A DNA stretch of 58,430 nucleotides, taken from assembly GCA_024958715.1 (NCBI GenBank), contig JANWUS010000074.1, positions 1 through 58,430 of the forward strand, read 5' to 3'. A program made the position numbers and the translations under genes. Numbering within the stretch: the stretch's first letter is position 1; the number at the start of each line of letters is the position of its first letter. Below are positions 43,297 to 58,322 of this stretch, piece after piece. Below the pieces are notes generated by a model. It was given only the letters and a program-made list of their open reading frames with translations. It did not search any database and had not been told where the DNA came from. Origin of the DNA: Cyanobium sp. FGCU52 (GTDB lineage: Bacteria > Cyanobacteriota > Cyanobacteriia > PCC-6307 > Cyanobiaceae).

Positions 43297-43671
43297 ATGC
43301 CTGCGATCCGACTGCTGGAGCTGCTGATCCTGCTGGCCGCCCTGGCCGGCTTCACGGGGCTGCTGCTGCGCCGCAACCTGTTTCTCAAGGTGCTGGCCAT
43401 GGATGTGACCGGCAGCGCGGTGGTGGCGCTGTTCGTGTTGCTGGGGGCCCGCTCGGGTCTGCGGACGCCGATCCTGTCGCGCCTGACAGGCCCTGCCGAT
43501 CCGGGCCTGGCCATCGCCGATCTCGCTGATCCGATCCCTCAGGCCGTGATCCTCACCGCCATCGTGATCGGCCTGTCGATCCAGGCGCTGCTGCTGGTGG
43601 TGATCACCCAGTTGGCGCGCATCGATCCCAGCCTGGATGCGTCCAGCTTCGACCCCCCCGATCGCCCATGA
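43297..43671 (+). CDS. mrpC: Mrp antiporter subunit C (NuoK-like)
   Basis: 124-residue three-helix protein of the MnhC/MrpC family: LLRRNLFLKVLAMDVTGSAV and AVILTAIVIGLSIQALLLVV are the conserved stretches. It is homologous to NuoK of complex I. It opens a run of seven genes that overlap each other by 1 to 4 bases, a tight operon for a multisubunit Na+/H+ antiporter. The insertion SGLRTPILSRLTGPADPGLA between helices 2 and 3 is longer than in Bacillus MrpC. Confidence 0.85.
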   Translation: MPAIRLLELLILLAALAGFTGLLLRRNLFLKVLAMDVTGSAVVALFVLLGARSGLRTPILSRLTGPADPGLAIADLADPIPQAVILTAIVIGLSIQALLLVVITQLARIDPSLDASSFDPPDRP

Positions 43672-45155
43672 GCGACCTCTGGAGCCCGGGCAGCCAGCAA
43701 CTGGTGATCTGGCTGCTGGCGCCCTACATCGCCGCCTTTCTGGTGGCGCTGCTGCCGGCGCTGTGCCTGCCCCTCATCCTGGTGTGCGTTCTCGCCACCG
43801 CGCTGCTCGGGGCCTGGCTGCTGCTTGATGGTGCCGGCCAGCAGCTGCTCCTGCTGCAGCAGTACGGCGTCAGCCTCAGCTTCGACCGTCTGGCCGGCTG
43901 GTTTCTGCTGCTCAACGGCCTGGTCTGCCTGGCGGTGTGGATCGAGGGCCGCAGGCAGGGCTGGGACCGCACCGGCTGGCTGCTGCTGCTGGTGCTTCTG
44001 GGAGCGCTCAACACCAGCTTCCTCACCACCGATCTGGTGAGCCTCTACGTGAGTCTGGAGGTGGTGGCGATCAGCGCCTTTCTGCTGATCCTCAAAGGCC
44101 GCACCGCCAGGGCCGACTGGATCGCCCTGCGCTACCTGCTTGTGAGCAACACGGCAATGGGGCTCTACCTGATCGGTGCGGCGCTGGTGTATTCGCAGAG
44201 CGGCAGCTTCCAGTTCGCCGCCCTTGCGGCCCTGCCGCCCGGGGCCCCGCTGGCCCTGGTCCTGGTGGGGCTGCTCACCAAGTCGGGCGTGTTCCTCAAT
44301 GGGCTCTGGCTGCCGCGCACCCATGCCGAAGCTCCTGCGGAGGTGTCGGCCCTGCTCTCGGGTGTGGTGGTGAGCGCCGGCGCGCTGCCACTGCTGCGCC
44401 TCGAGCAGTTCAGCACCGCCGTGATCGCTCTGCTCACCCCGATCGCCCTGGCCAGCGCCGCGCTGGGGGTGGTGTACGCCCTGGTGGTCGACGATGCCAA
44501 ACGCCTCCTGGCCTGGAGCACCCTGGCCCAGATGGGGCTGGTGATCCTCTCCCCAGCGGCCGGCGGGGCGATGGCGCTCAGCCATGGCCTGGCCAAGGCG
44601 GGGCTCTTTCTCACTGCTCGCCACTGGCCGAGCCGCTCGCTGCAGGGCTGGTCGGGGAGGCCGCTGGCCTGGAACCTGCAGCTGCCGCTTTGGCTGGGCG
44701 CCCTCTCGATCGCCGGTGTGCCACCGCTGATCGGTTTCTCCGCCAAGAAGCAATTGGAGACGGCCCTGACCCCGCCGCTGGCCTGGGCGGTGCTGCTGCT
44801 CTCGATCGGCAGCGTGGCCCTCTACGCGCGCCTGTGCCGGGCACCCTGGGACCTGAGCCCGCGAGCGCCCCTGTCCTGGGGAGCCCTGCTGCTCAGCCTG
44901 CCGCTGCTGATCACCGGTGTGGCCTTCAGCGCCGGAGGCTTGACGGCCGACGGCCTGCTGAAGTCCGTCACCGTGCTGCTCCTCGGCGTGGTGCTGGATC
45001 AGTCCCTCGAGCGGCTGCGCTGGCGCGAGCGGATCTCCCTGCCCCAGCTCGATCGCCTGCCCGACCTGCTGGGGGGTCTGGGACTGATCGGGGCCGGCCT
45101 GGTGGTGGCGATTCGCAGCGGCTTCCTGCCTCTGGTCACGGAGGGAGCGCTCTGA
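43668..45155 (+). CDS. mrpD: Mrp antiporter subunit D (NuoN/L-like, proton channel)
   Basis: 495-residue polytopic protein with about 14 helices, the only large antiporter-like subunit in this cluster. Proton-path residues are visible: the TM5 Glu in YVSLEVVAISAFLLIL, the TM7 Lys in LVGLLTKSGVFLNGLWLPRT followed by HAEAPAEVSALLSGVVV, and a Lys in MALSHGLAKAGLF. These match complex-I NuoL/M/N and MrpD. It overlaps mrpC by 4 bases and its stop overlaps the mrpE start (TGATG). Confidence 0.88.
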   Translation: MSDLWSPGSQQLVIWLLAPYIAAFLVALLPALCLPLILVCVLATALLGAWLLLDGAGQQLLLLQQYGVSLSFDRLAGWFLLLNGLVCLAVWIEGRRQGWDRTGWLLLLVLLGALNTSFLTTDLVSLYVSLEVVAISAFLLILKGRTARADWIALRYLLVSNTAMGLYLIGAALVYSQSGSFQFAALAALPPGAPLALVLVGLLTKSGVFLNGLWLPRTHAEAPAEVSALLSGVVVSAGALPLLRLEQFSTAVIALLTPIALASAALGVVYALVVDDAKRLLAWSTLAQMGLVILSPAAGGAMALSHGLAKAGLFLTARHWPSRSLQGWSGRPLAWNLQLPLWLGALSIAGVPPLIGFSAKKQLETALTPPLAWAVLLLSIGSVALYARLCRAPWDLSPRAPLSWGALLLSLPLLITGVAFSAGGLTADGLLKSVTVLLLGVVLDQSLERLRWRERISLPQLDRLPDLLGGLGLIGAGLVVAIRSGFLPLVTEGAL

Positions 45156-45586
45156 TGGGGTTTCTGCTCAGCTGCCTGCTGCGGCTGGTGCTGTGGGGCC
45201 TGCTCACGGCCGAAACCAGTGCCATCAACCTGCTGATCGGTCTGGCCCTGGCCGTGCTGTTGCCCCATGCCAGGGGGCCCCGCCAACCGCTCGCCCCGCT
45301 GCTGCGAGCGCTGTGGGGCGCCCTGGTGGCGATTCCGGTGTCCTACGGCGAAGCCCTGTCCCTGATCCGCGGCGGCGGTGACGAGGAGCGCTGGCTGGAG
45401 CAGCCGGCCAGCGCTCCAAGCCAGCGGCTGGTGATCTTTCTGGAGGTGCTGGCGATCACCCTCACTCCCTTCACGCTCGTACTTGGCCTGAGCCGCGTGG
45501 AGGGCCGGCCGATCTACCGCATTCACCAGCTGCGGCCCCGGCCCAGCACACCCAACCCGGCCGACACGAGGAGGATTGAACCATGA
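45155..45586 (+). CDS. mrpE: Mrp antiporter subunit E
   Basis: 143-residue MnhE/MrpE-type membrane protein: two N-terminal helices (VLWGLLTAETSAINLLIGLA), then AIPVSYGEALSLIRGG and EVLAITLTPFTLVLGLSRVE. It is needed for assembly or stability of Mrp complexes in other bacteria. It overlaps mrpD by one base and mrpF by four. A longer in-frame upstream ORF is only the shadow of mrpD. Confidence 0.85.
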   Translation: MGFLLSCLLRLVLWGLLTAETSAINLLIGLALAVLLPHARGPRQPLAPLLRALWGALVAIPVSYGEALSLIRGGGDEERWLEQPASAPSQRLVIFLEVLAITLTPFTLVLGLSRVEGRPIYRIHQLRPRPSTPNPADTRRIEP

Positions 45587-45831
45587 ATGTGCTGATCTGG
45601 GGGATGCTGCTGGCCCTGCTGATTCCGATCGCTGTGGTATGCCGGCCCTGCAGCGTCTGGGACCGGATGGCCGCCTTCAGCAGCATCGCCTCGAAGGTGG
45701 CGCTGATGATGATGGTGGTGGGCGTGATGCGCAATGACTGGATGCTGGGGCTGGTGGGGGCGATCAGCCTCAGCGCCGGCAATTCCGGAATGCTGCTGCT
45801 CGCCAATGTTCTGCGGGAGGTGGAACGATGA
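45583..45831 (+). CDS. mrpF: Mrp antiporter subunit F
   Basis: 82-residue three-helix protein. CRPCSVWDRMAAFSSIASKV corresponds to the MrpF cytosolic loop (usually RGPSxxDRVVALD), with Cys in place of Gly. It is implicated in Na+ passage in Mrp complexes. It overlaps both neighbours by 4 bases. Confidence 0.82.
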   Translation: MNVLIWGMLLALLIPIAVVCRPCSVWDRMAAFSSIASKVALMMMVVGVMRNDWMLGLVGAISLSAGNSGMLLLANVLREVER

Positions 45832-46178
45832 CAACGATTCTGAAGGCGCTTGAACCCTTCGCCGACCCCGTGAGCCTGCTGCTTCTCGGAGCCGGACTGC
45901 TGCTCTGGTTCTGGGGAACCTGGCCACTGCTGGAAGCAGGCAGTTATCTCAGCAAACTCCACAAATTGTCGGTTTCCGACACACTCGGCTCCACCCTGAT
46001 GCTGCTCGGACTTCTTGTACGCATTCCAGGGCAGTGGCCCCTGCTTTGCCTGGCGCTGCTGGGCCTGCTGGTGTGGAACACCATCTTCGGCTATGTGCTG
46101 GCGCGCTGTTCTCTCCCTCCACAACAATCCGAGCCTGCGGCTGCGGCTCGGCTGGCGTCTCCCACCCTGCGTCCATGA
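45828..46178 (+). CDS. mrpG: Mrp antiporter subunit G
   Basis: 116-residue MnhG/MrpG-type protein: three helices with SYLSKLHKLSVSDTLGSTLM LLG in the middle, corresponding to the RLHAATKATTLG region of the family. A Ser/Pro/Ala-rich tail (LPPQQSEPAAAARLASPTLR) extends beyond the usual end. It overlaps mrpF and the next gene by 4 bases. Confidence 0.82.
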   Translation: MTTILKALEPFADPVSLLLLGAGLLLWFWGTWPLLEAGSYLSKLHKLSVSDTLGSTLMLLGLLVRIPGQWPLLCLALLGLLVWNTIFGYVLARCSLPPQQSEPAAAARLASPTLRP

Positions 46179-46705
46179 ACGGCGTCGTTCCGACTTTGCC
46201 GCTGAGCCTCAGCGGCGAACTCGATCTGCTGCTGCCGATCACGGCGCTGCTGCCGCTCACCGCCGTGCTGCTGGTGAGCCAGAGCAATCCGTATCAGACG
46301 CTCGTGCTGCGCGGCATCCTTGGCTCGGTGGCCACGCTTGTGTATGCCCTGCTCGGGGCGCCTGATGTGGCGATCACCGAAGCCCTGGTGGGCACGTTGC
46401 TCTCCACCACGCTCTATGCCGTGGCGCTGCGCTCGTCGATGGCGCTGCGCCTGGAGGACCGCCGCAGCAGTCCCGATCCGCAGCCGGAGCAGCGACTCTC
46501 TCAATGGATCAGTGCCCTGCATCTGCGCCTGCGGCTCGTGGAGGCCGGCGCCGATCCGGGCCGCTGCCACGGCTGGCTGGAGGATGGCGGGCGCCTGGTG
46601 CTGCGCCAGCGGGCGCTGCTGGAGCGGCTGCAGCGATACCCCGGTTATGGCCCGTGGTGCGATGCGGGCGGTGCGCTCCTCCTTGATCCGGAGCTGACGC
46701 CATGA
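46175..46705 (+). CDS. Mrp-type DUF4040 subunit (MrpA C-terminal / MbhD-like)
   Basis: 176-residue membrane protein. The first ~95 residues carry three helices with VSQSNPYQTLVLRGILGSVA and APDVAITEALVGTLLSTTLY, matching the DUF4040/MbhD domain that forms part of the C-terminus of MrpA in full Mrp systems. The last ~75 residues are soluble (LRLRLVEAGADPGRCHGWLE) with no family I recognise. It stands as a separate gene, and no NuoL-like N-terminal MrpA domain is present in the cluster. It overlaps mrpG and mrpB by 4 bases each. Confidence 0.78.
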   Translation: MNGVVPTLPLSLSGELDLLLPITALLPLTAVLLVSQSNPYQTLVLRGILGSVATLVYALLGAPDVAITEALVGTLLSTTLYAVALRSSMALRLEDRRSSPDPQPEQRLSQWISALHLRLRLVEAGADPGRCHGWLEDGGRLVLRQRALLERLQRYPGYGPWCDAGGALLLDPELTP

Positions 46706-47361
46706 CCTGGCTGTATCTGCTGGCGGCCATCGCCCTGTTCGCCGCGCCGCTGGCCAGCCCACTGCCAGGCGCGTCGGCCGTGGGGGAACTGATCCGCTCG
46801 CTGGCCGAGCAGACCCAGGTGCCCAACCTGGTCTCGGGCGTGATCCTCCAGACCCGCCTGTTCGACACCGTGGCCGAGGTGGTGGTGTTCACCCTGGCAT
46901 CCATCGGCGTGAAGCTTGTGCTGAGCGGTCAGCCGGGGCACCAGCAGATCCGGGGTCTGGAGGATCCCCCCTCCCAGGTTCTGTGTGAACTCGGCTCCAC
47001 GATCGCGGCTCTGGTGGCAGCGGAGCTGGCCCTCAGAGGGCACCTCAGCCCCGGAGGTGGCTTCGCCGCCGGCGTGGCGGGAGGCACGGCCATCGGGCTG
47101 CAGCTGATCAGCGGCGGCGCCGCACGCAGCGAGCGGCTGTTCGTCCGCTACCGGGCCGACCTGCTGGAAAAGGGTGCGGTGCTCGGCTTTCTGCTGGTGG
47201 CACTGCTGGCCTTGCTGGGGATGACCCCTGGAGCGGGATCCTTTGGCGAACTGCTCAGCGGCGGCTGGATCCCGCTGCTCAACGTTTTCGTGGCCCTGAA
47301 GGTCACCCTGGGTTCCTGGGCGATGGTGCAGCGATTGGTGCGCTACTGCGGCCTGCTCTGA
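46702..47361 (+). CDS. mrpB: Mrp antiporter subunit B
   Basis: 219-residue MnhB-domain protein: ILQTRLFDTVAEVVVFTLAS and RGHLSPGGGFAAGVAGGTAI are the conserved motifs. The N-terminal ~60 residues (SPLPGASAVGELIRSLAEQT) resemble the MbhE-like segment found at the end of MrpA. So part of MrpA may be split into this gene and the one before. It is the last gene of the operon; sbtA follows after 432 bases. Confidence 0.83.
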   Translation: MTWLYLLAAIALFAAPLASPLPGASAVGELIRSLAEQTQVPNLVSGVILQTRLFDTVAEVVVFTLASIGVKLVLSGQPGHQQIRGLEDPPSQVLCELGSTIAALVAAELALRGHLSPGGGFAAGVAGGTAIGLQLISGGAARSERLFVRYRADLLEKGAVLGFLLVALLALLGMTPGAGSFGELLSGGWIPLLNVFVALKVTLGSWAMVQRLVRYCGLL

Positions 47362-47793
47362 AAACCGTTCCCCATCTCAAGGCTTGCCGCGGGGCTGACC
47401 CAACTGTCCGTCCTCCTGCCTATGGTTCTGCGCCTACTCCCTGCTGTAGCGGTGCTTACCCCATTTGCCCCACGTCGCTCAGCGGCGCCAACGCGCTGCA
47501 CGCCGTTTGAGGAGCAGATCCGCATCACTGCGGTGCAGGAGGGCCGGGGCTCAGACCTCGGCTCCAGCGACTGACCGCCAGAGCCGATTCCAGAAAAGCA
47601 CCGGTGTTCGGAACCTCTCTCGAGGGGTGCATCCGGGCCATCGTTGCAGATGAACGTGCCTGATTTCACGGAACTGCCATGCAAGCCCAACGGGTCAACC
47701 GTGGCAGTCATCCGAATCTGGGTTCGCACCACCTTCCTGCTTCGGCACTCCACAACCCAAACACCAACCGCCTGCACACCTTGAGGATTAGAA
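47362..47793. other. Intergenic region upstream of sbtA
   Basis: 432 bases that should hold the sbtA promoter. A 50-codon plus-strand frame at 47422-47574 (starts MVLRLLPAVAVLTPFA, signal-peptide-like) is visible but has no homolog I know. An interrupted inverted repeat ACTGCCA / TGGCAGT lies near 47680-47710. No clear terminator follows mrpB. Confidence 0.4.
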
Positions 47794-48789
47794 GTGTCTG
47801 AGTTCGTCACACTCTTTGTACAACAGCTTCAGTCGCCAACGCTGGGCTTCCTGATCGGGGGCATCGTTGTCGCCTCGCTCGGCAGCCAGCTGGCCATTCC
47901 CGACTCGATCTATAAGTTCATCAGCTTCTTCCTGCTGATCAAGATCGGTCTCACGGGCGGTATCGCCATCCGGAACTCCAATCCGACCGAGATTTTCCTG
48001 CCGGCACTGGCGGCGGTGCTGATCGGCATTGTGATTGTGTTCATCAGCCGCTGGACGCTCGGCCGTCTGCCCGGCATCAAAGTGCAGGATGCCGTGGCCA
48101 CAGGCGGCCTGTTCGGAGCGGTCAGCGGCTCCACCCTGGCCGCCGTCCTGCCCGGTCTGGACGCCGCCAAGGTGCCCTACGAGGCCTGGACTGCTGCTCT
48201 TTATCCGTTCATGGACATCCCGGCGCTGGTGACGGCGATCGTGGTGGCCAGCGTGTATCTCAGCAAGAAGACCGGCCAGGCCGAGAAAGTGGAGATCTGG
48301 CCGATCATCAAGGAGAGCCTGCAGAGCTCGGCCGTGACGGCTCTGCTGATGGGCGTGGCCCTCGGCATCCTGACCCGGCCCGAACCGGTGTATGAGAGCT
48401 TCTTCAACCCTCTGTTCAAAGGCTTCCTGTCGGTGCTGATGATCATCATGGGCATGGAAGCTGCCCAGCGCATGAATGAGCTGCGCAAAGTGGCGCAATG
48501 GTTCGCCATCTACGCCTTGATCGCTCCGATCCTGCACGGTTTCATTGCCTTCGGCCTTGGCCTGATCATCCACAAGATCACCGGATTCAGCATCGGTGGC
48601 GCCGTGGTGCTGGCGGTGATCGCCGCCTCCAGCTCCGACATCTCCGGCCCGCCCACCCTGCGGGCCGGTATCCCCTCAGCGAACCCCTCTGCTTACATTG
48701 GCGCTTCAACGGCCATCGGCACGCCTGTGGCCATCGCCATCTGCATCCCGCTGTTCATCGGCATCGCCGAGATGATGCTGGGTCGCTGA
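47794..48789 (+). CDS. sbtA: Na+-dependent bicarbonate transporter SbtA
   Basis: 331-residue single-subunit symporter of the plasma membrane, importing HCO3- with Na+ for the carbon-concentrating mechanism. Two inverted five-helix halves are visible, with [20 protein letters not shown] in the first half and [20 protein letters not shown] with [20 protein letters not shown] in the second, which form the substrate site. The cytosolic loop between the halves ([20 protein letters not shown]) is short. Start GTG, with an AGGA ribosome site 8 bases before. sbtB follows after 34 bases, so both are co-expressed. Confidence 0.97.
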
Positions 48790-48823
48790 GACCTTACCAA
48801 CCAAACCATCGGACTTCCAAACC

Positions 48824-49138
48824 ATGAGTCAACAAGTCTGGAAACTGGTGATCGTCGCCGAGGAGATCCTCTCCAAGAAGCTCACCAAGCTGATCAAGGA
48901 GGCTGGGGCAACCGGCTATACCGTCAATGCTGCCGGCGGTGAAGGCAGCCGCAACGTGCGCTCGACCGGCGAGCCCAGCGTGTCGCACACCCTGTCGAAC
49001 GTGAAGATCGAGGTGCTCACCGGCACCCGCGAGTTGGCGGACAAGATCACACGCGAGATCGAAGCGAAATATTACGCCGACTATTCGATCATCACGTACA
49101 TCTACCCCGTCGAAGCACTGCGCGACCACAAGTTCTGA
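48824..49138 (+). CDS. sbtB: PII-like regulator SbtB
   Basis: 104-residue trimeric PII-like protein that binds adenine nucleotides (including cAMP) and Sbt[21 protein letters not shown] is beta1-alpha1, [13 protein letters not shown] the T-loop base, and [19 protein letters not shown] the C-terminal strand. The Cys-containing C-terminal hairpin (CGPxGC) seen in some SbtB proteins is absent. It is expected to inhibit SbtA in the dark or under high energy charge. A strong terminator lies 28 bases downstream. Confidence 0.95.
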
Positions 49139-49166
49139 TCCGTCCCTTCGCAGAGCCCCTCGTCCA

Positions 49167-49194
49167 GCAGCCGCTTCTGCGGCTGCTTTTTTTT
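49167..49194 (+). terminator. Intrinsic terminator of sbtA-sbtB
   Basis: 8-bp perfect stem GCAGCCGC / GCGGCTGC with a TTCT loop and eight T, 28 bases past the sbtB stop. Confidence 0.95.
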
Positions 49195-49391
49195 GACCTC
49201 CGGAACACCTTCGCTGGATGAGGACGAACGAACGCCTGGAATGGAGGAGGCTTCGATCACCATTGTTGATGTCAATCCTGTTCTATCCGCCACCGCCAAC
49301 TGGCTTCATTGCCTAGGTTTCACCGACCCGATGGCCGAGAGCTACCAGGCCATCGCCTCGATCCGACCTGCCAGGCCCGACGGACATTTCC

Positions 49392-49859
49392 ATGGACTTT
49401 CTCAGCGACAAGCGCTTTCTTGGTTCCATCCACAGCTACGAGCGCCAGCTCGCCAAGATTCTCGCCCTGTTGCTGGCGGTCGTCATCGGCTTTGCCACCG
49501 TCGAGCTGGTGCTCCAATCAGGCGTCAAGATCGTCCAATGGCAGACCGACTGGTTCGACGGCAGTCTGATCAAACTGCTCGATCGGCTTCTGCTGATCTT
49601 CATTGCACTGGAAGTCCTGCAGAACGTAACGGCCTACCTGCGTGATCAGGTGGTTCAGATCGAACTCGTGTTGCTGACAGCGCTCACGGCAGTGGCTCGA
49701 AAGGTGATCGTGCTGCCACCGGGTACCGAGAACAAAGCGCCGCTGATGGGCAGCTTCGGCCTGATTGTTGTGGGCCTGGCCGCCGCCTATTGGCTGATCC
49801 GCCAAGCCGGCCAGAGCGGCAATCGCGCCCATGACACCAGCACCAATCCATCGGCTTAG
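49392..49859 (+). CDS. PsiE-like membrane protein
   Basis: 155-residue protein with four membrane helices: AKILALLLAVVIGFATVELV, LLDRLLLIFIALEVLQNVTA, VELVLLTALTAVARKVIVLP and SFGLIVVGLAAAYWLIRQAG. The layout and the LEVLQNVTAYL and TAVARKVIVL segments match the phosphate-starvation-inducible PsiE family, whose function is unknown. It lies directly after sbtB but beyond its terminator, so it has its own promoter. No phosphate genes are nearby; a link with carbon uptake is only suggested by position. Confidence 0.78.
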   Translation: MDFLSDKRFLGSIHSYERQLAKILALLLAVVIGFATVELVLQSGVKIVQWQTDWFDGSLIKLLDRLLLIFIALEVLQNVTAYLRDQVVQIELVLLTALTAVARKVIVLPPGTENKAPLMGSFGLIVVGLAAAYWLIRQAGQSGNRAHDTSTNPSA

Positions 49860-49887
49860 CCCATAACTGTCGCGGCCTGAGTGGTGG

Positions 49888-49908
49888 ACTGATCAGTGGA
49901 ACTGATCA
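49888..49908 (+). promoter_or_regulatory. Palindrome pair upstream of the sigma gene
   Basis: ACTGATCAGT is a perfect 10-base palindrome (49888-49897), followed after three bases by ACTGATCA (49901-49908). It lies ~100 bases before the sigma start. Similar CTGATCAG palindromes occur upstream of the Crp-type gene and, interrupted, of cmpA. It may be an operator; chance is not excluded. Confidence 0.3.
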
Positions 49909-50006
49909 TCCCGATTCAGGCTGCTGAGCAACGGGAGGGCAGAGGCCACACCCACTCCCCAGTCTCAGTCATTAACGTTCGCCGACCCACTACAGCCAGC
50001 CATCCG

Positions 50007-50978
50007 ATGCCTGCGCCACAGAAGCGCCCCCTGGGCCGCTGCGACGCACTCAGTCTGCACATGCGCGCCATTGGGCGAATCCCCCTGCTGACAGCGTCCG
50101 AGGAAATCGCCCTGGCACGGGAGGTGCAGAAAGGCCGGCAACTGCTGGAGGCGAAGGAGGAAATGACCCTTCGCTCCGGCGGGTCCAGCCCGAGCCTTGA
50201 GGCCTGGGCGCTGGAAAGCGGCATGAGCGTGCGGCAGCTGCAACGCTGCCTGCATCGGGCGGAACGGGCCCGCAGCCGCATGGTGGTGGCCAATCTGCGC
50301 CTGGTGATCAGCATGGCCAAGCGCTATCAGCACCGACCGGCCGACCTGGAGGATCTGATCCAGGATGGAACCATCGGCCTGATCCGGGCGGTCGAGCGGT
50401 TCGACCCCAGCCGCGGCTATCGCTTCTCCACCTATGCCACCTGGTGGATTCGCGATGGCATCGGCAGTGCCCTGATCAACCGGGGCCGCACCATCCGCCT
50501 GCCCTCCACCATGGTGGACCAGCTGCACCGGTTGCGGCAGTGCCAGCAGGCCCTCGGCCAGAAACTGGGTCGTGATCCCAGTCTGTCCGAACTCGCGGAG
50601 GCGAGCGGGCTCAAAGCCCTCGACATCCGTGAGGTGCTGTTCCGCGCCCAGGAACCTCTCAGCCTCGACGCGCAGCAGGGTGCCGACAGTGAGCTGCGTC
50701 TGGTGGAAACCCTGCCATGCCGCCGCACCGATCCCCACAACGAGGTCACCACGAGCCTGATGCAGCAGGACATCGAGCGTCTGCTGGACGATCTGCCCGC
50801 GGCGGAGGCCACCCTGCTGCGCTTTCGCTACGGCCTCACCGCCGAGGAACCGCTGAGCCTGAGTGCCACGGCAAGGCGCATGGGCATCACCCGCGACACC
50901 GCCCGTGGGCTGGAGCGGCGGGCCAATGCCGCGATCCGGCAGCTCTCGCAGGGGTTCGTCGACTACCTGGAAGCCTGA
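50007..50978 (+). CDS. Alternative sigma-70 factor, divergent group 2-like
   Basis: 323-residue RNA polymerase sigma factor. Region 1.2 is LSLHMRAIGRIPLLTASEEI, region 2 runs through VVANLRLVISMAKRYQHRPA and YRFSTYATWWIRDGIGSALI, region 3 follows RTIRLPSTMVDQLHRL, and region 4 ends in SLSATARRMGITRDTARGLE. Compared with housekeeping SigA, region 2.4 has RDGIGSALI where RQAITRAIA is usual, and region 4.2 has RDTARGLERR where RERVRQIE is usual, so its promoter preference probably differs. ATG at 50007 (MPAPQKRPLG) is chosen; an in-frame GTG at 49896 is possible. It may control neighbouring genes. Confidence 0.9.
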   Translation: MPAPQKRPLGRCDALSLHMRAIGRIPLLTASEEIALAREVQKGRQLLEAKEEMTLRSGGSSPSLEAWALESGMSVRQLQRCLHRAERARSRMVVANLRLVISMAKRYQHRPADLEDLIQDGTIGLIRAVERFDPSRGYRFSTYATWWIRDGIGSALINRGRTIRLPSTMVDQLHRLRQCQQALGQKLGRDPSLSELAEASGLKALDIREVLFRAQEPLSLDAQQGADSELRLVETLPCRRTDPHNEVTTSLMQQDIERLLDDLPAAEATLLRFRYGLTAEEPLSLSATARRMGITRDTARGLERRANAAIRQLSQGFVDYLEA

Positions 50979-51902
50979 GGGCCTCCCCCTGCCAGCCTGG
51001 CCATTCGCAGCCTGGACCAAAGCTGAGCGGCTCACCCCGGACGATGCTCCAGCGGGCTGGCTGAGGCTTGCGGCGGCCTGCCGGCTGTAGCGACCGGCGT
51101 GGTCGGCCGTAGACGGGGGCCGCAGCGAGCAGATAACCGGGGGTGCCGCAACGGAAGCGCCGCCGGCTGGCCCAGCAGGGCATCCAGGCGATGGCGACGC
51201 ACCCTGATGCCTGGGCGGCAGCGCCAACGGCACGGCCAACACTGAGCCGCTGCGCAAGGCAGCGTCTGCAGGCCGCAGAACCCATGCCTTGCCGACAGAA
51301 CGGCTCCAGGTTGGCCTGAGCACTGGTGTCACGGGTCTCAGGAGGGAGAGGGAGGCTGGAGGGAAGGAAAGAATCCGCTGCGTGGCATCGCAGCGGATCC
51401 AGTTCTCCAGGAGCAGTGATGCAAGCAGGGTTTGAAAGGTGATGGGTTGAACCAGCACACCAGAGGATGTTGTCACGACAACCAGGAGTGGATTCGCGGG
51501 ATTGATTACAGGCGGCCGCACCCCGATGACAGCACTCTTGCCATTGCAGAAATCTAGTCATTGCAATGGTTCTGAGTGCATTCAGACGCCCTGATCAGAC
51601 AGTCTTATCGCCCCAATGAGAGATGGTTCGTGACGCGCGACCCAGGTGTCGCCACACACTCCCTATGGTTTGCGCACGTCACCTCACCCCCCTCCCGCAT
51701 GACATCTGGCCATCCCTAGCCACTGGCCAGGGCTTCCGATCAGGATCCCGGACAGTGGCCATTTCTGCAGGATTTCAGCCACCCGCTTGATCCTCCTCGG
51801 CAGACATTGCGAGGTTGACTCATTGCAAGAACATCCATCTGGCTTGCCAGTTGGATTCAGGCGACTGCATCCAGCCACAGCCAGCGATCGGCAGGAGCGC
51901 AC
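50979..51902. other. Long non-coding region upstream of the Crp-type gene
   Basis: 924 bases without a gene I can support, unusually long for this genome. Open frames in it have no recognisable motif. It holds repeated CATTGCA elements (51541-51569, 51805-51827) and a CTGATCAG palindrome (51591-51598). A small RNA, a long 5' leader or a decayed gene are all possible. Confidence 0.5.
51541..51569 (+). promoter_or_regulatory. CATTGCA inverted repeat
   Basis: CCATTGCA and TGCAATGG form a perfect 8-base inverted repeat with a 13-base spacer; the right arm is itself inside the 10-base palindrome CATTGCAATG (51559-51568). Two more copies in direct orientation, CATTGCG (51805) and CATTGCA (51821), occur nearer the regulator start. 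The pattern suggests cooperative binding of a dimeric regulator, possibly the Crp-type protein itself. Confidence 0.4.
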
Positions 51903-52547
51903 ATGACTCCCGCCCTTAGCACAACTGCACCCGATTCATTGCCCGCCTTCCCTGCCATGCATCCCGCCATGACAGCCCGAGATCTGCATCTGAGCCTGCA
52001 GGCCGCCGCGACGGTGCCCTGCAACCTCAATTGGCGGATTGAAGACGGCTACCTGAGAGTGGCCAGCTGGAGCGAACAGGGCGAACCCTGCACCTTCGGC
52101 CTCTGGGGACCGGGCGATCTGGTGATTTCCTCGCTGATCGCCGTGGCACCGCTGCAGCTTCTCGCCCTGTCTTCCGCACGGGTGGAGGAAGTAGATCCCA
52201 GCCCCGCGGAGCGGGAGGCCTTCCTGCTGGATCAGAGCCTGCAGACCGCCACCCTGTTGCGGCTGAGCCGCATCCGGCCAGCGGAATCACGGCTGTTTCA
52301 GCTGCTGCTCTGGATCGGCGAACGCTTCGGACGCATCAGCAGCCGGGGGGTGAGCCTCTCCTTTGATGACATGAATCTCACCCATCGCCACCTGGCGGAA
52401 ATCTCGGGGCTGACGCGGGTGACCGTGACCAAGGCCATCTCCCACTTCCGCCACGAAGGCTATCTCTGCAAGGAGGGTTCGGATGAACTCCTCCTGCGCG
52501 AGGCCCTGCCCCATCTGCAACGCCAGGCCAAAGGAGCACTGCCATGA
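51903..52547 (+). CDS. Crp/Fnr-family transcriptional regulator
   Basis: 214-residue regulator. The C-terminal winged helix-turn-helix reads LTHRHLAEISGLTRVTVTKA ISHFR (about 158-182); the recognition segment TRVTVT is the same as in NtcA (TRVTVTR). The N-terminal sensory half is shortened and lacks the glycine-rich phosphate-binding cassette of CRP, so it may sense another ligand or none. It lies 349 bases before cmpA and on the same strand, which suggests it controls the transporter. No LysR-type CmpR gene is in this window. Confidence 0.85.
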   Translation: MTPALSTTAPDSLPAFPAMHPAMTARDLHLSLQAAATVPCNLNWRIEDGYLRVASWSEQGEPCTFGLWGPGDLVISSLIAVAPLQLLALSSARVEEVDPSPAEREAFLLDQSLQTATLLRLSRIRPAESRLFQLLLWIGERFGRISSRGVSLSFDDMNLTHRHLAEISGLTRVTVTKAISHFRHEGYLCKEGSDELLLREALPHLQRQAKGALP

Positions 52548-52622
52548 CGCACAACAGCCGATGCAAGCGAGGTCCACCCACCACGCGGCGGCAGCGACGT
52601 CGTTGAACACCCGATGGCGTTC

Positions 52623-52639
52623 GATCAGGTCGACTGATC
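52623..52639 (+). promoter_or_regulatory. Candidate operator of the cmp operon
   Basis: Perfect inverted repeat GATCAG / CTGATC around GTCGA, 258 bases before the cmpA start. It shares its half-site with the palindromes upstream of the sigma and Crp-type genes. Confidence 0.3.
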
Positions 52640-52761
52640 ACCAAGGTTGATGCAGCTTCAGCAAGACCAACGCAGAGGAACTCAACCCTTCCTCCTCTGA
52701 CATCGAATCGCACCTCAGAAGCCAGGGCAGGCAACAGATCACGCTCAGCTATCTGAACAAC

Positions 52762-52784
52762 GCAGTCGCCGAACGGGCGACTGC
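52762..52784 (+). terminator. Hairpin in the cmpA leader
   Basis: Perfect 9-bp stem GCAGTCGCC / GGCGACTGC with a GAACG loop. No U tract follows (TTGGATT), so it may end the regulator transcript weakly or be a leader structure of cmpA mRNA. Confidence 0.4.
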
Positions 52785-52896
52785 TTGGATTCCAGTCACC
52801 AGATTCTCCAGGGTGCAGCCATGGTTGCCCTCTGTTGGATTGCGCTCCAGTTCCTGATTTCTTTTCCGACCCACGGTTCGTTTCCCCAACCACATC

Positions 52897-54234
52897 ATGG
52901 CCAAGCGTCGTCGTTTTCTTGCGCTTCTCAGCGGCACCCTCGCAAGCACCGTCGTGCTCACCGGCTGCCTGGGCAATCCTCAGGGAAGCACATCCGCTGG
53001 TGGTGGCTCCACTTCGGCACCAGCGGTCAGCAACGCCAACATCGAAACCAAGACGATCAGCCTTGGTTTCATCCCCATCCTTGAAGCCGCTCCTCTGGTG
53101 ATCGGGGTGGAGAAGGGGTTCTTCGCCAAGCATGGCCTGGATGTGAAACTCTCCAAGCAGGCCAACTGGGGTGCCGCCCGCGACAACGTCGTACTCGGCT
53201 CGGCCGGCGGCGGCATCGATGGCGGCCAGTGGCAGTTGCCCATGCCCCAGATGATCAGCGAAGGTGCGATCACCAACGGCAAGAAGGTGCCGATGTACAT
53301 CCTGGCGATGCTGATGAGCCAGGGGAACGGCATCGCCGCAGCTGATGCCGTCAAGGATGGCAATCTCACCGTGGATCTGGCCAAGTCGTCTCCCGGCTTC
53401 TTCGATAAGTTCAATCAGAAGGAAGGCCGCAAGTTCCGGGCCGCCTACACCTTTCCCAAGGCCAACCAGGAGTTCTGGATCCGCTGGTGGCTCGCTGCCG
53501 GTGGCGTGGACCCCGACACGCAGGTCGAACTGCTGACTGTGCCGACCCCTGAGACGCTGCAGGGGATGAAGAACGGCACGATGGAGGCCTTCTCCACCGG
53601 TGATCCCTGGCCGTCACGCATCGCCCGCGACAAGATCGGCTATCTGGCCGCCACCACCTCCCAGCTGTGGCCGGTGCACCCGGAGGAATACCTCGCAGTC
53701 CGGGCCGACTGGGTCGACAAGCATCCCAAGGCCGCCGTGGCGTTGCTCAAGGGTCTGATCGAGGCCCAGATGTGGCTCGACAAACCGGAGAACAAGGATG
53801 AAGCGGCCAAGATCCTGAGCTCGCGCAAGTGGTACAACGTGCCCCAGGAGGTGCTGGCGGAGTCGCTCAAGGGTCAGTACAAGCTCGGCGCTGAGGGAAC
53901 ACCGGTTAATGATCCCAAGCTCGGTCCGCTGTACTGGAACAGCGACCGGGGTGTGATCTCCTACCCCTACAAGAGCCTCACCCAGTGGTTCCTGATCGAG
54001 GCCTTGCGCTGGAAGTTCTACCCCGGCACGGTCGACACGATCGAGCAGGCCAAGGCGATCACCGACAAGGTAACGCGTGAGGATCTCTGGAAGCAGGCCG
54101 CCCAGGAGGTGGGCGTCCCCGCCAAGGACATCCCCACCGGCTCCAGCCGCGGCAAGGAAACCTTCTTCAACGGCATTGTCTACGACCCGGAGAATCCGCA
54201 GGCCTACCTCGATTCTCTGAAGATCAAGAAGTGA
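52897..54234 (+). CDS. cmpA: ABC transporter bicarbonate-binding lipoprotein, CmpA-like
   Basis: 445-residue substrate-binding protein of the CmpA/NrtA family. It has an N-terminal KRRRF twin-arginine-like signal, lipobox LTGC with Cys24, then a Ser/Gly linker. Substrate-site positions read W91 (ANWGAARD), Q191 (KANQEFWIRWW) and E264 (HPEEYLAVRA). From the known structures, CmpA has Gln and a Ca2+-binding Glu where nitrate-binding NrtA has His and Lys, so bicarbonate is the better call. It opens the operon for a high-affinity HCO3- transporter (BCT1). A nitrate role is less likely but not excluded. Confidence 0.8.
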   Translation: MAKRRRFLALLSGTLASTVVLTGCLGNPQGSTSAGGGSTSAPAVSNANIETKTISLGFIPILEAAPLVIGVEKGFFAKHGLDVKLSKQANWGAARDNVVLGSAGGGIDGGQWQLPMPQMISEGAITNGKKVPMYILAMLMSQGNGIAAADAVKDGNLTVDLAKSSPGFFDKFNQKEGRKFRAAYTFPKANQEFWIRWWLAAGGVDPDTQVELLTVPTPETLQGMKNGTMEAFSTGDPWPSRIARDKIGYLAATTSQLWPVHPEEYLAVRADWVDKHPKAAVALLKGLIEAQMWLDKPENKDEAAKILSSRKWYNVPQEVLAESLKGQYKLGAEGTPVNDPKLGPLYWNSDRGVISYPYKSLTQWFLIEALRWKFYPGTVDTIEQAKAITDKVTREDLWKQAAQEVGVPAKDIPTGSSRGKETFFNGIVYDPENPQAYLDSLKIKK

Positions 54235-54240
54235 ACCTCA

Positions 54241-54273
54241 GGGCCCGCCGCCCCCCAGGCCGGCGGCGGGTCC
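54241..54273 (+). other. Strong stem-loop between cmpA and cmpB
   Basis: 12-bp GC-rich stem GGGCCCGCCGCC / GGCGGCGGGTCC (one G-U pair), 6 bases past the cmpA stop, with no U tract. Such structures after binding-protein genes protect the upstream mRNA from 3' decay and raise its share over the membrane subunits. Confidence 0.7.
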
Positions 54274-54351
54274 TGACCCTGATGGCCTCAAAGCCTGGTC
54301 TGTCCCACGTCTCTGAAACACCCTGTCCTCCCGACCTCCAGGACCTGTCCC

Positions 54352-55200
54352 ATGACCACCAGCACCACACCCATCGCCAATCGCGGCGATCGCTCTGCAC
54401 CCACAGGTTTGGCACTGTGGTGGAAAAACAACCGCAAACTCATCCTTCCCCCCATTTTCGGAATCGGTGGTTTTCTGCTGTTCTGGCAGCTAAGCGCCAG
54501 CCTCGGCCTCACCAAACTGGCCGGCCCCCTCAGCCTGTTCACCGAGGAGCGCACCCGCGAACTGCTTTTCTATCCCTTCTTCGATCGCGGCGGCCTTGAC
54601 AAAGGCCTGTTCCTGCATTCGATGAGCAGCCTCAGCCGCGTGGCCCTGGGCTACACCCTGGCTGCCGTCGTCGGCATCGCCGCGGGCATCGCCGTCGGTC
54701 TGAACAAGGGCCTCGACCGCGCCTTTGATCCCCTGTTCCAGTTCCTGCGCATGGTGGCGCCGCTGGCCTGGGTGCCGATCGCGCTGGTGCTGTTCCAGAA
54801 CAACCAGCCGGCCGCCATCTTCGTGATCTTCATCACCTCGATCTGGCCGATTCTGATCAATACGGCCGAAGGTGTGCGCCAGATCCCCCAGGATTACCGC
54901 AACGTGGCGCTGGTGCTGCAGATGTCCAGCCGCCGCTTCTTCACCAAGGTGCTGATCCCCTCGGCGCTTCCCTACATCTTCACCGGCCTGCGCATCTCCA
55001 TCGGACTGGCCTGGCTGGCCATCATCGCCGCTGAGATCGTGATGCCAGGCACCCCCGGCATCGGCTTCTTCATCTGGGATGCGTATCAGAACAGCTACGT
55101 CTCCGACATCGTGCTTGGTGTGATCTGGATCGGTGCCATCGGTCTGGTTCTCGACCGCCTGATGGCCTGGCTTCAGCAGCGCATCTCCCCGGGCCAGTGA
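54352..55200 (+). CDS. cmpB: ABC transporter permease, CmpB-like
   Basis: 282-residue permease with about six helices. The cytosolic coupling loop that docks on the ATPase is in NTAEGVRQIPQDYRNVALVL, and the helix FRLASL-like region is replaced by KVLIPSALPYIFTGLRISIG LAW, both typical of NrtB/CmpB/SsuC. The N-terminal ~45 residues are cytosolic. It follows cmpA after 117 bases that contain a stem-loop. Substrate assignment rests on cmpA. Confidence 0.88.
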   Translation: MTTSTTPIANRGDRSAPTGLALWWKNNRKLILPPIFGIGGFLLFWQLSASLGLTKLAGPLSLFTEERTRELLFYPFFDRGGLDKGLFLHSMSSLSRVALGYTLAAVVGIAAGIAVGLNKGLDRAFDPLFQFLRMVAPLAWVPIALVLFQNNQPAAIFVIFITSIWPILINTAEGVRQIPQDYRNVALVLQMSSRRFFTKVLIPSALPYIFTGLRISIGLAWLAIIAAEIVMPGTPGIGFFIWDAYQNSYVSDIVLGVIWIGAIGLVLDRLMAWLQQRISPGQ

Positions 55201-55236
55201 TCTCTTCCAATCCGCCCTTCTCATGCCGAGTTCACC

Positions 55237-55407
55237 ATGCAGCGTCTCCATCTCAATCCGTTCCAGTCACTGAATCAGCGGCTGCAATCGCTTGAAGAAG
55301 CGATGGCCCGACCGGCCAACACATTCACGTTCTTATTGATTCGGTTCCTGCTGATGAGCGCCATGGTGGTGGGCTTCAGCTGGTGGGCCCTGCACCTCAG
55401 TCCCTGA
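55237..55407 (+). CDS. 56-residue single-span membrane protein inside the cmp operon
   Basis: A short ORF read directly from the gap between cmpB and cmpC. It starts MQRLHLNPFQSLNQRLQSLE (amphipathic, glutamine-rich helix), continues EAMARPANTF and then has one strong membrane helix (about 30-53: TFLLIRFLLMSAMVVGFSWW) and ends ALHLSP. It fills the 226-base gap, starting 36 bases after cmpB and ending 19 bases before cmpC. Basic and polar residues before the helix predict an N-in orientation. I know of no described subunit of this size in BCT1 or nitrate transporters. The ribosome site is weak, which lowers confidence. Confidence 0.65.
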   Translation: MQRLHLNPFQSLNQRLQSLEEAMARPANTFTFLLIRFLLMSAMVVGFSWWALHLSP

Positions 55408-55426
55408 TCCCCTTCACTGCGTACCC

Positions 55427-57430
55427 ATGACGACAGCAACCCTGGTCAACGTTCAGGAGCTTGAAAAGAATTTTCCCCTCAGCGGCGGCGGCAACTACCT
55501 GGCCCTCAAGGGCATCGATCTCGAGATCCGCAAGGGCGAATTCATCTCCCTGATCGGCCACTCCGGCTGCGGCAAGAGCACCCTGCTCAACATGATCGCC
55601 GGCCTCGATCTGCCCACCGCCGGCACCGTGCTCGTCGATGGCGAGACGGTCAAGCGCCCCGGGCCGGACAAGATGGTGGTGTTCCAGAACTACTCGCTTC
55701 TGCCCTGGCTCACAGTGGAGCAGAACATCGCCCTCGCCATCGATGAGGTGATGCCGGGCCTCTCGGGCGATGAGCGCAAGGCCATGATCGACGAGCACAT
55801 CGACATGGTGGGCCTCGGCCATGCTGGCCACAAGCTGCCCCGCGAGCTCTCCGGCGGCATGCGCCAGCGGGTGGCGATCGCCCGCGCCCTGGCGATCAAG
55901 CCGAAGCTGCTGCTGCTCGATGAACCGTTCGGGGCTCTCGATGCCCTGACCCGGGGCAACCTGCAGGAGAAGCTGATGCAGATCTGCAACGAGCACCAGC
56001 TCACCGCCGTGATGGTCACCCACGACGTGGATGAGGCGGTGCTGCTCTCGGATCGCATCGTCTGCCTCACCAACGGCCCCGGCTCGAAGATCGGCGGCAT
56101 CCTTGAGGTGGACATCCCGCGGCCGCGCCAGCGCATGACCGTGGTGCACCACCCCAGCTACTACAGCCTGCGCTCGGAGATCATCTACTTCCTCACCCGC
56201 CAGAAGCGGGTGAAGCAGTGGCAGGCCAAGCCCCACAAGGTGCTGGCCCGCCATGGCCTGGAGAAGGTGAATGTCGATCTCGGCTTCATCCCCCTGGCCG
56301 CCTGTGCCCCGATGGCAATCGCCGAGGCCAAGGGCTTCTTCAGCAAGCACGGTCTCGATGACGTGCATCTGGTGCGCGAGACCAGCTGGCGCGGCGTCAC
56401 CGACGGCTTCCTGGATCAGACCCTCGATGCGGCGCTGATGCCCTCGGGCATGCCCACCTGGATGACCGCGGGGGGGCACGGCGGTGATCCTGTGCCCATC
56501 GTCACGGCCCTGACGATCAGCCGCAACGGCAACGAGGTCACCCTGGCCAAGCGTCTGGCGGAGCAGGGCGTGCGTTCCGTGGAGGATTACCGCAACTGGC
56601 TGCAGAGCCACAACCGCGAGCCCCACACCCTGGGCATCGTGCATCCGGCCTCGATGCACAACCTGCTGCTGCGCTACTGGCTGGCCGCCAGCGGCATCGA
56701 TCCCGACAAGGATGTGCACCTGCAGACCCTGCCGCCGGCCCAGATGCTGGCCGACCTCAAGGACGGCTCGATCGACGGCTACTGCATCGGAGAGCCCTGG
56801 AACCTGCGCGCGACGCGCGAGGGCCACGGCGTGCCGATCGTCGGCGATCTGGAGATCTGGAACGGCCATCCCGGCAAGGTGCTGGGTGTGCGCGAAGACT
56901 GGGCGCTGGCCTATCCCAACACCCACATCGCCCTCACCAAGGCGCTGCTGGAGGCCTGCCAGTTCTGCGCCGATCCGGCCCACTGGGATGAGATGGCCGA
57001 GCTGCTCTCCGATCGCCGCTACCTGGGCATGAAGAGAGAGCTGATCAGCTTCGGCGGCGGCAAGGACAGCGAGGGCCAGTTCGCCCCCCACGGCGAGCCC
57101 CACCACCTGTTCTTCGGAGCGGGCGTGAACCGACCCAGCCGCACGGAGCACCTCTGGATCCTCACCCAGCTGGCCCGCTGGGCCGAGATCCCCTTCCCGC
57201 GCAACTACGTGGAGATCCTCGAGCGGATCTGCAACATCAGCGTGTTCAGCACGGCGGCGCGGGAGCTGGGCATCGAGGATGTGAGTTACCAACGCGGGCC
57301 GATCGAACTGTTCGATGGCCGCAGCTTCGATGGCAACGACCCGATCGCTTATCTCAACAGCGTCCGTGTGCACCGCGACTTCAGCGTCGCCGAAATTCCG
57401 CTCGGAGTTCCCCGCCCGCTGGCGGCCTGA
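55427..57430 (+). CDS. cmpC: ABC transporter ATPase fused to a binding-protein-like domain, CmpC-like
   Basis: 667-residue fusion typical of NrtC/CmpC. Residues 1-260 are an ATPase: Walker A GHSGCGKST (44-52), signature ELSGGMRQRVAIARA, Walker B LLLLDEPFGALDA and a switch His in VTHDVDEA. Residues about 280-667 are a CmpA-like domain (VDLGFIPLAACAPMAIAEAK, HPGKVLGVREDWALAYPNTH). This domain is cytosolic and is thought to sense the substrate and inhibit the transporter. The equivalent of the E264 site here is GKVLG, so the regulatory ligand may differ. Confidence 0.9.
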   Translation: MTTATLVNVQELEKNFPLSGGGNYLALKGIDLEIRKGEFISLIGHSGCGKSTLLNMIAGLDLPTAGTVLVDGETVKRPGPDKMVVFQNYSLLPWLTVEQNIALAIDEVMPGLSGDERKAMIDEHIDMVGLGHAGHKLPRELSGGMRQRVAIARALAIKPKLLLLDEPFGALDALTRGNLQEKLMQICNEHQLTAVMVTHDVDEAVLLSDRIVCLTNGPGSKIGGILEVDIPRPRQRMTVVHHPSYYSLRSEIIYFLTRQKRVKQWQAKPHKVLARHGLEKVNVDLGFIPLAACAPMAIAEAKGFFSKHGLDDVHLVRETSWRGVTDGFLDQTLDAALMPSGMPTWMTAGGHGGDPVPIVTALTISRNGNEVTLAKRLAEQGVRSVEDYRNWLQSHNREPHTLGIVHPASMHNLLLRYWLAASGIDPDKDVHLQTLPPAQMLADLKDGSIDGYCIGEPWNLRATREGHGVPIVGDLEIWNGHPGKVLGVREDWALAYPNTHIALTKALLEACQFCADPAHWDEMAELLSDRRYLGMKRELISFGGGKDSEGQFAPHGEPHHLFFGAGVNRPSRTEHLWILTQLARWAEIPFPRNYVEILERICNISVFSTAARELGIEDVSYQRGPIELFDGRSFDGNDPIAYLNSVRVHRDFSVAEIPLGVPRPLAA

Positions 57431-57473
57431 ACTGGGCACCCCCCACCCTTTGAACCCATCTTTCGCGAACCCG

Positions 57474-58322
57474 ATGTCTGCATCCGTTCTGCAACATCCC
57501 ACAACCACCCCCGCTTCGGCGGGGGGCTCTCCCCTGCTGCGCTTCGAGCAGCTGGGCAAGGTCTATCCCACACCCGCCGGCCCCTATCCGGTGCTGGAGA
57601 ACATCAGCTTCGAAGTCAACCAGGCTGAATTCGTTTGCGTGATCGGCCACTCCGGTTGCGGCAAGAGCACCCTGCTGAACATGGTTTCGGGCTTCGCCAA
57701 GCCCTCCTCCGGTCAGGTGCTGCTCAACGGCAGGCCGATCGAGAAGCCCGGCCCCGATCGGATGGTGGTGTTCCAGGGCTATGCGCTGCTGCCCTGGATG
57801 ACCGCCTACGAGAATGTGTATCTGGGCGTTGATTCGGTGAAGCCGGATCTGCCCGAGCACGAGAAGCGCGACATCGCCATGGAACACTTGCAAATGGTCG
57901 GCCTGAGCGCGGCGGCCGAGAAGAAGATCACTCAGATCTCCGGCGGCATGAAGCAGCGCGTGGCCATTGCCCGCGCCCTGGCGATCCGCCCGGAGGTGCT
58001 GATCCTCGATGAACCCTTCGGGGCGCTCGATGCGATCACCAAGGAGGAGCTGCAGGAGGAGCTGCTCAAGATCTGGAACACCCAGAAGTGCACGGTGCTG
58101 ATGATCACCCACGACATCGACGAGGCCCTGTTCCTCGCCGATCGTCTGGTGATGATGACCAACGGTCCCGCCGCCGGCATCGGCGAGATCCTCTCCATCG
58201 ATTTCCCTCGGCCCCGCAGCCGCGAGGACATCATGGAAGATCCCCGCTACTACGAGCTGCGCAACCAGGCCCTCGATTTCCTCTACAACCGTTTCGCCCA
58301 CGACGAAGACGAGAAGGCTTGA
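57474..58322 (+). CDS. cmpD: ABC transporter ATPase, CmpD-like
   Basis: 282-residue second ATPase, pairing with CmpC as a heterodimer. Walker A GHSGCGKSTLLNMVSG, signature QISGGMKQRVAIARALAIRP, Walker B VLILDEPFGALDAITKEEL, and ITHDIDEALFLADRLVMMTN are all intact. The start ATG at 57474 (MSASVLQHPTTTPAS) is chosen; the longer frame upstream is the shadow of cmpC. It ends the operon before a terminator. Confidence 0.9.
   Translation: MSASVLQHPTTTPASAGGSPLLRFEQLGKVYPTPAGPYPVLENISFEVNQAEFVCVIGHSGCGKSTLLNMVSGFAKPSSGQVLLNGRPIEKPGPDRMVVFQGYALLPWMTAYENVYLGVDSVKPDLPEHEKRDIAMEHLQMVGLSAAAEKKITQISGGMKQRVAIARALAIRPEVLILDEPFGALDAITKEELQEELLKIWNTQKCTVLMITHDIDEALFLADRLVMMTNGPAAGIGEILSIDFPRPRSREDIMEDPRYYELRNQALDFLYNRFAHDEDEKA

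Follow-up and report, generated by a model that had tools for sequence, protein, structure and literature searches.

Whether the interval between the permease gene cmpB and the ATPase gene cmpC of a cyanobacterial bicarbonate-transporter operon holds a gene of its own, and what its product would contribute to a transporter, BCT1, that is described as consisting of the four subunits CmpA, CmpB, CmpC and CmpD (PMC13249358, PMC11349869), is the question raised by this locus. An earlier note on the window, here the whole analysed stretch of 58,430 nucleotides, had claimed that a small frame with a membrane helix fills the cmpB-cmpC gap exactly, and this was confirmed: an ATG-started frame of 56 codons, closed by TGA, was located there on the + strand.

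The operon and its setting

The gene order in the window is crp-like gene, cmpA, cmpB, small gene, cmpC and cmpD, with the following features.

51903-52547, + strand: crp-like (Crp/Fnr-like) regulator gene upstream of cmpA; HTH_Crp_2, with weak PtrA/NtcA matches under the curated cut-offs
52897-54234, + strand: cmpA, bicarbonate-binding lipoprotein; best PDB match CmpA 2i48
54352-55200, + strand: cmpB, permease; PF00528, best PDB match CmpB 9u9z
55237-55407, + strand: small gene, 56-residue protein
55427-57430, + strand: cmpC, ATPase with a regulatory, substrate-binding-like domain fused to it; PF00005, PF13379
57474-58322, + strand: cmpD, ATPase; PF00005, domain and family matches

The host operon encodes a permease and two ATPases, of which CmpC carries the substrate-binding-like extension (PF00528, PF00005 and PF13379). 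It is assigned here as cmp (bicarbonate, BCT1) and not as nrt (nitrate), because in the PDB search both CmpA (549 bits against the solved CmpA 2i48 versus 399 bits against NrtA 2g29) and CmpB (361 bits against CmpB 9u9z versus 263 bits against the nitrate permease) score higher against the solved cmp proteins than against their nitrate counterparts.

The surroundings, from 43297 to 58322, form an inorganic-carbon island with Mrp/Mnh-like antiporter subunits, SbtA (PF05982; the gene lies at 47794, upstream of cmp), a PII-like SbtB, a PsiE-like protein, a sigma-70 family factor and the Crp-like regulator, followed by cmp. SbtA is likewise near cmp in G030, and the Crp/Fnr-like gene before cmpA is present in some of the examined loci and missing in others. 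Partial extra copies of cmpA were observed upstream of cmpA in two loci (L124 6897-7547, - strand, and L113 2148-2309), which suggests that the gene for the binding protein was duplicated in tandem and that the copies decayed. In G009, an in-frame TGA lies within a conserved stretch of cmpB (L050, about 1682, - strand), with the small frame and cmpC remaining open; this may be either a true inactivation or a sequencing error. In Synechocystis, a porin gene lies between cmpB and cmpC, so that this gap accepts inserts elsewhere too.

Coding character of the small frame

The small frame starts 36 nt past the cmpB stop codon and ends 19 nt ahead of the cmpC ATG, the latter distance being 6 nt in several relatives. 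No alternative start (ATG, GTG or TTG) was found in its phase between the cmpB stop and its own ATG, and a pattern scan of positions 54200-57500 revealed neither a promoter nor a + strand terminator.

Selection was assessed on 13 row-disjoint close pairs picked by hand (694 codons), which gave a pN/pS of 0.40 for the small frame (Fisher p 2.3e-26), with 0.25 in the membrane helix and 0.45 in the N-terminal part. The shifted reading frames of the same pairs gave 0.93 and 1.92; the freedom of frame 0 from stops is partly by construction, since the rows were chosen as open frames. In these pairs the differences at the first, second and third codon positions number 138, 85 and 215, respectively, and because substitutions concentrate at third positions the constraint acts on the protein; an RNA element as its source was rejected on this excess. 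A wider and less strict count over 286 pairs with dS under 1.5 gave a median dN/dS of 0.56, with some pairs above 1. We regard the small gene as being under purifying selection at the protein level, strongest in the membrane helix, and over longer distances the constraint appears clear but moderate. Judged from its conservation, it is near certain that the frame is a real gene, and it is likewise near certain that its product is a membrane protein of the cmp operon.

Distribution among genomes

A search of 119 relatives with the bare 56-residue protein (threshold E 0.1) matched 26 genomes, in 23 of which the match is flanked by cmpB and cmpC; one further match is an operon relic (G002), and the two others (G064 and G053) were rejected as chance, as they contain internal stops and have no cmp gene in the locus. 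All 23 Cyanobiaceae genomes of this set in which a close cmpB is nearly complete (E 7.7e-129 or better) carry an intact homologue of 49-63 residues between cmpB and cmpC, and no homologue was found in the two genomes of the set that hold only a cmpB fragment (G019 and G031). A bare-protein search of genome contigs returned one locus, in Cyanobium sp. FGCU6.

The survey was then widened to 400 Cyanobiaceae genomes, using a 23-row profile at E 0.01 and CmpB as a query at 1e-90. The profile matched 33 genomes, and a close cmpB was found in 50, of which 31 carry the homologue in the operon (27 between cmpB and cmpC and four upstream of cmpA), 17 lack it and two have cmpB off the contig. With the two genomes in which cmpB runs off the contig (G019 and G226) left out of the 50, 48 are assessable (G031, with its cmpB fragment, was kept out of the count as well), and the distribution is patchy: the small gene is in the cmp operon in 31/48 and absent in 17/48. 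Of the two remaining profile matches, one is the operon relic of G002; the other, on a different contig of G226, was rejected as chance because it has two stops and its locus (L098) has no cmp gene. The 17 gene-less loci, when rescanned with all HMMER filters off and E up to 1, again yielded no homologue. Among the 400 genomes the profile found nothing where a close cmpB is missing, except the G002 relic, in a search that caps the first-look candidates scored in each genome (at 16 in the family survey and 17 in the class survey) and could miss a divergent copy far from cmp.

Outside the family, a survey of 388 genomes of the class (a set that includes family members, and in which cmp carriers were uncounted) gave no credible match beyond Cyanobiaceae: four of its five matches belong to genomes already known from the family, and the remaining one (G628; 29 residues, one internal stop, no cmp gene in the locus) was rejected as chance. 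The claim that known BCT1 and nitrate operons have no such gene held where it was tested, namely in the seven closest non-family cmp-like loci, in which the cmpB-cmpC gaps are 3-74 nt, and in both of the nrt-like paralogue operons examined (0/2 with a match). Because 17/48 family genomes and the seven outgroup loci have the operon without the gene, BCT1 does not, as far as these genomes indicate, need the small protein everywhere.

Relocation, relics and history

In four genomes of genus g9, the small gene lies upstream of cmpA instead of between cmpB and cmpC. A sigma-factor-like gene is found further upstream in all four, 0.1 to 1.1 kb away, and in G309 a crp-like gene sits between the relocated small gene and cmpA. 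In G293, the order reads SbtA, SbtB, PsiE, two sigma-like genes, small gene and cmpA, a tandem pair of sigma-70-like genes being observed upstream of the relocated gene (L118 7521-9601, - strand).

The earlier note would have counted a frame broken in close relatives as a refutation, and this outcome did not occur: the 27 copies that lie between cmpB and cmpC are all unbroken, though that of G306 comprises only 33 residues. The sole broken relic found at this position is that of G277, whose operon also carries an intact upstream copy:

L119 3721-3807, - strand: broken small-gene relic of G277, between cmpB and cmpC
L119 6390-6545, - strand: intact small-gene copy of G277, upstream of cmpA

The relic retains a 55-nt stretch that matches the end of the small gene of the window, the rest being lost; its alignment score is 60, whereas none of 2000 plain shuffles exceeded 26, and reaches 75 against G030. 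In G277, identity to the window is 93% for the ATPase part of cmpC and 92% for cmpD, versus 77% for cmpA and 84% for cmpB. As cmpCD is nearer to the lineage of the window than cmpAB is, and as an intact copy and a relic of the small gene are both present, the locus points to an apparent recombination junction at which donor cmpCD may have brought in a redundant copy of the small gene that later decayed. In G002 (L089), the cmp operon has decayed to a fused frame of the cmpA start and the cmpB end, and the small frame is still open; no cmpC was found in the 1.7 kb behind it.

On the CmpB tree, the absence of the small gene needs seven changes, at least six of which are forced by well supported branches, so that a single early gain followed by several losses and a history involving some transfer are both possible. 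As freshwater alpha-cyanobacteria obtained cmpABCD from beta-cyanobacteria according to a comparative study (PMC9477826), we infer that the small gene was added after this acquisition.

Anatomy of the small protein

The amphipathic N-terminus and single membrane helix that had been read from the letters are predicted likewise by hydropathy and by AlphaFold. The AlphaFold model, based on a 32-row alignment, places helices at residues 8-22 and 26-53 (mean pLDDT 71, pTM 0.37; pLDDT 90 over residues 31-50), corresponding to an amphipathic helix followed by one membrane helix, and in the 32 copies the most hydrophobic stretch of 19 residues has a mean hydropathy of 1.9-2.65. The 33-residue version of G306, which lies between cmpB and cmpC, is almost the membrane helix alone, without the amphipathic helix.

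The other copies are 28-57% identical to that of the window. M1, F32, L33, R36 and M43 are invariant (for M1 this follows from the rows having been cut at a start codon), and L39 and F47 are nearly so. The conservation is helix-periodic with a best angle of 100 degrees; the permutation p is 0.0018 at that angle and 0.0096 when 85-115 degrees is searched, values obtained by permuting columns among related rows. F32, R36, L39, M40, M43 and F47 share one face of the helix. Because the net charge is more positive on the N-terminal side in 23/32 copies (four ties, five reversed), a cytoplasmic N-terminus is favoured.

Searches for known relatives gave no significant match. With 23 members scanned, the best E value was 0.11 in Pfam, with nothing over a curated cut-off, and 0.0056 in NCBIfam (three members, NADH-quinone oxidoreductase subunit M, under the curated cut-off); given that number of members, each falls below significance. 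No significant match was found in the PDB, and PHROGs gave a single match at E 0.15. NdhQ is a small subunit of cyanobacterial NDH-1, and as a single-sequence query the small protein gave a weak phmmer match between NdhQ and residues 30-54 (E 0.43); this kinship was dropped, as the family profiles A1 and A2 bring up no NdhQ entry at E values up to 10. A search of the open-access journal literature found no paper on a small cmp-operon protein. The reading in the earlier note of a small membrane protein in the BCT1 operon is supported; that the protein is conserved and tied to the cmp operon is well supported by its presence in 31/48 genomes, its pN/pS of 0.40 and the relocated copies that keep the linkage. 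We regard it as a new family among small proteins of a kind already known, within a variant of a well known transporter.

Proposed role and alternatives

We propose, with a probability of roughly 0.6, that the product of this real gene is a single-pass accessory fifth component of BCT1 in part of the Cyanobiaceae, which would either keep the complex stable or hold back transport and back-leak. That it is a functional partner of BCT1 is likely from its linkage, the relocated copies in four genomes and the relics in G277 and G002 all remaining at cmp; our confidence in the stabilise-or-throttle mechanism is moderate. The role of regulator or stabiliser, already suggested in the earlier note, is something that we infer. 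The small protein would be made with its N-terminus in the cytoplasm and its amphipathic helix along the inner leaflet, and would pack against the CmpB dimer through the face formed by F32, R36, L39/M40, M43 and F47; once docked, it may stabilise the complex, or limit transport and back-leak while the ATPases idle, in the manner of SbtC on SbtA. A bound accessory helix is suggested by the conserved face with its in-membrane arginine, by the linkage kept through rearrangement and by loss or decay along with the operon. A joined chain of CmpB, linker and small protein folded poorly (pLDDT 61, pTM 0.43, in a model that carries no contact output). Of the top 15 CmpB columns that vary with the presence of the small gene, ten lie in residues 25-58, a clustering that is not beyond that of tree-simulated labels (31/400 simulations as high) and is taken here as no more than a lead. 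A more specific version, in which BCT1 has five components and the single-helix subunit is a valve of the permease against bicarbonate leak and idle cycling, as a second and separate invention of the SbtC principle, is tentative and on present evidence rather doubtful.

The small protein might instead be a real membrane protein that is co-regulated with BCT1 and acts elsewhere, for example on SbtA-SbtB, on an Mrp-type antiporter or on the membrane under carbon limitation. The inorganic-carbon island of the window, with Mrp-like genes, SbtA and the PII-like SbtB upstream, would suit such a role, but the small gene is at the cmp genes in 31/31 of the operon-bearing genomes that have it, genomes without a close cmpB gave nothing other than the G002 relic in the 400-genome search, and 17 PF05982 loci (16 over the family cut-off, with about 1.5 kb of flank) gave five small hydrophobic frames, none of which matches the profile, the best family-profile score there being 3.7 bits for an antiporter-like frame; we consider action elsewhere unlikely. 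It is improbable that the frame serves chiefly to couple translation, as a leader or spacer by which the CmpC:CmpB ratio is set, with the peptide itself of little use. Although the tight spacing on both sides and the lack of a promoter or terminator in the scan are what such a leader would show, the protein-level constraint peaks in the membrane helix and includes invariant residues, and four genomes have the gene upstream of cmpA, where coupling to cmpC is impossible, yet still with the operon, so that it is not merely a coupling leader.

Two further readings concern the origin of the frame. A cassette recently inserted from elsewhere and conserved through a short time only would fit a gene that is found in one family, and patchily there; it is made quite improbable by the divergence of the small protein, the copies of which fall to the identities given above while the CmpB proteins of the 50 genomes remain 75-95% identical to that of the window, so that the gene appears to be old in the family, and by close pairs in which synonymous sites have changed far more than replacement sites have. 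A chance open frame, or an extension of CmpB by read-through of its stop codon, has next to no probability: in the window the small frame is in phase with cmpB and separated from it only by the cmpB TGA, but the offset to the cmpB stop spans all three phases over the 23 loci, which contradicts read-through, and protein-like selection is seen in this frame alone and in a gene of which relocated copies exist.

Implications and comparison with known systems

Transfer of BCT1 into crop chloroplasts is an engineering goal, and the native transporter is reported to be inactive in E. coli (PMC13249358). If the accessory reading is true, a fifth subunit confined to this lineage would provide a natural means of acting on the stability or activity of BCT1, and control by small proteins would extend to a second bicarbonate transporter after SbtC; if the valve reading is true, cyanobacterial bicarbonate transporters of different fold would each carry their own micro-protein brake. 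The small gene further provides a clean example on which to test how conserved linkage can reveal unannotated genes within operon gaps.

The closest parallel is SbtC of Synechocystis sp. PCC 6803, a previously unannotated small protein encoded beside SbtA that, according to a commentary (PMC13360264), lowers SbtA uptake in the light, reduces leakage in the dark and co-migrates with SbtA and SbtB. As described there, SbtC resembles the small protein in being an unannotated small frame adjoining a bicarbonate transporter, in its very small size with a single predicted membrane helix and in being patchy in cyanobacteria. The two differ in position and host, as the gene for SbtC lies upstream of sbtA-sbtB and its product acts on a sodium-dependent carrier, whereas the small gene lies inside cmp at 55237, belongs to the operon of an ABC importer and is found in one family only.

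Among ABC transporters, the small transmembrane protein LucB of a mycobacterial lipid-uptake system has been proposed as a regulator (PMC10710835), and by this description it is similar to the small protein as a small membrane protein on an ABC transporter, although the transporter and the organism differ. AcrZ, MgtS and MgtU, with 28-49 residues, are described in the same source as binding and tuning or protecting a transporter (PMC10710835); they serve other transporter types, and the likeness is one of size and role, with no homology claimed. BCT1 itself (CmpABCD; solved in 9u9z, 9ua0, 9ua1 and 2i48) has the same cmpA-cmpB-cmpC-cmpD arrangement as the operon reported here, in which a fifth gene is embedded.
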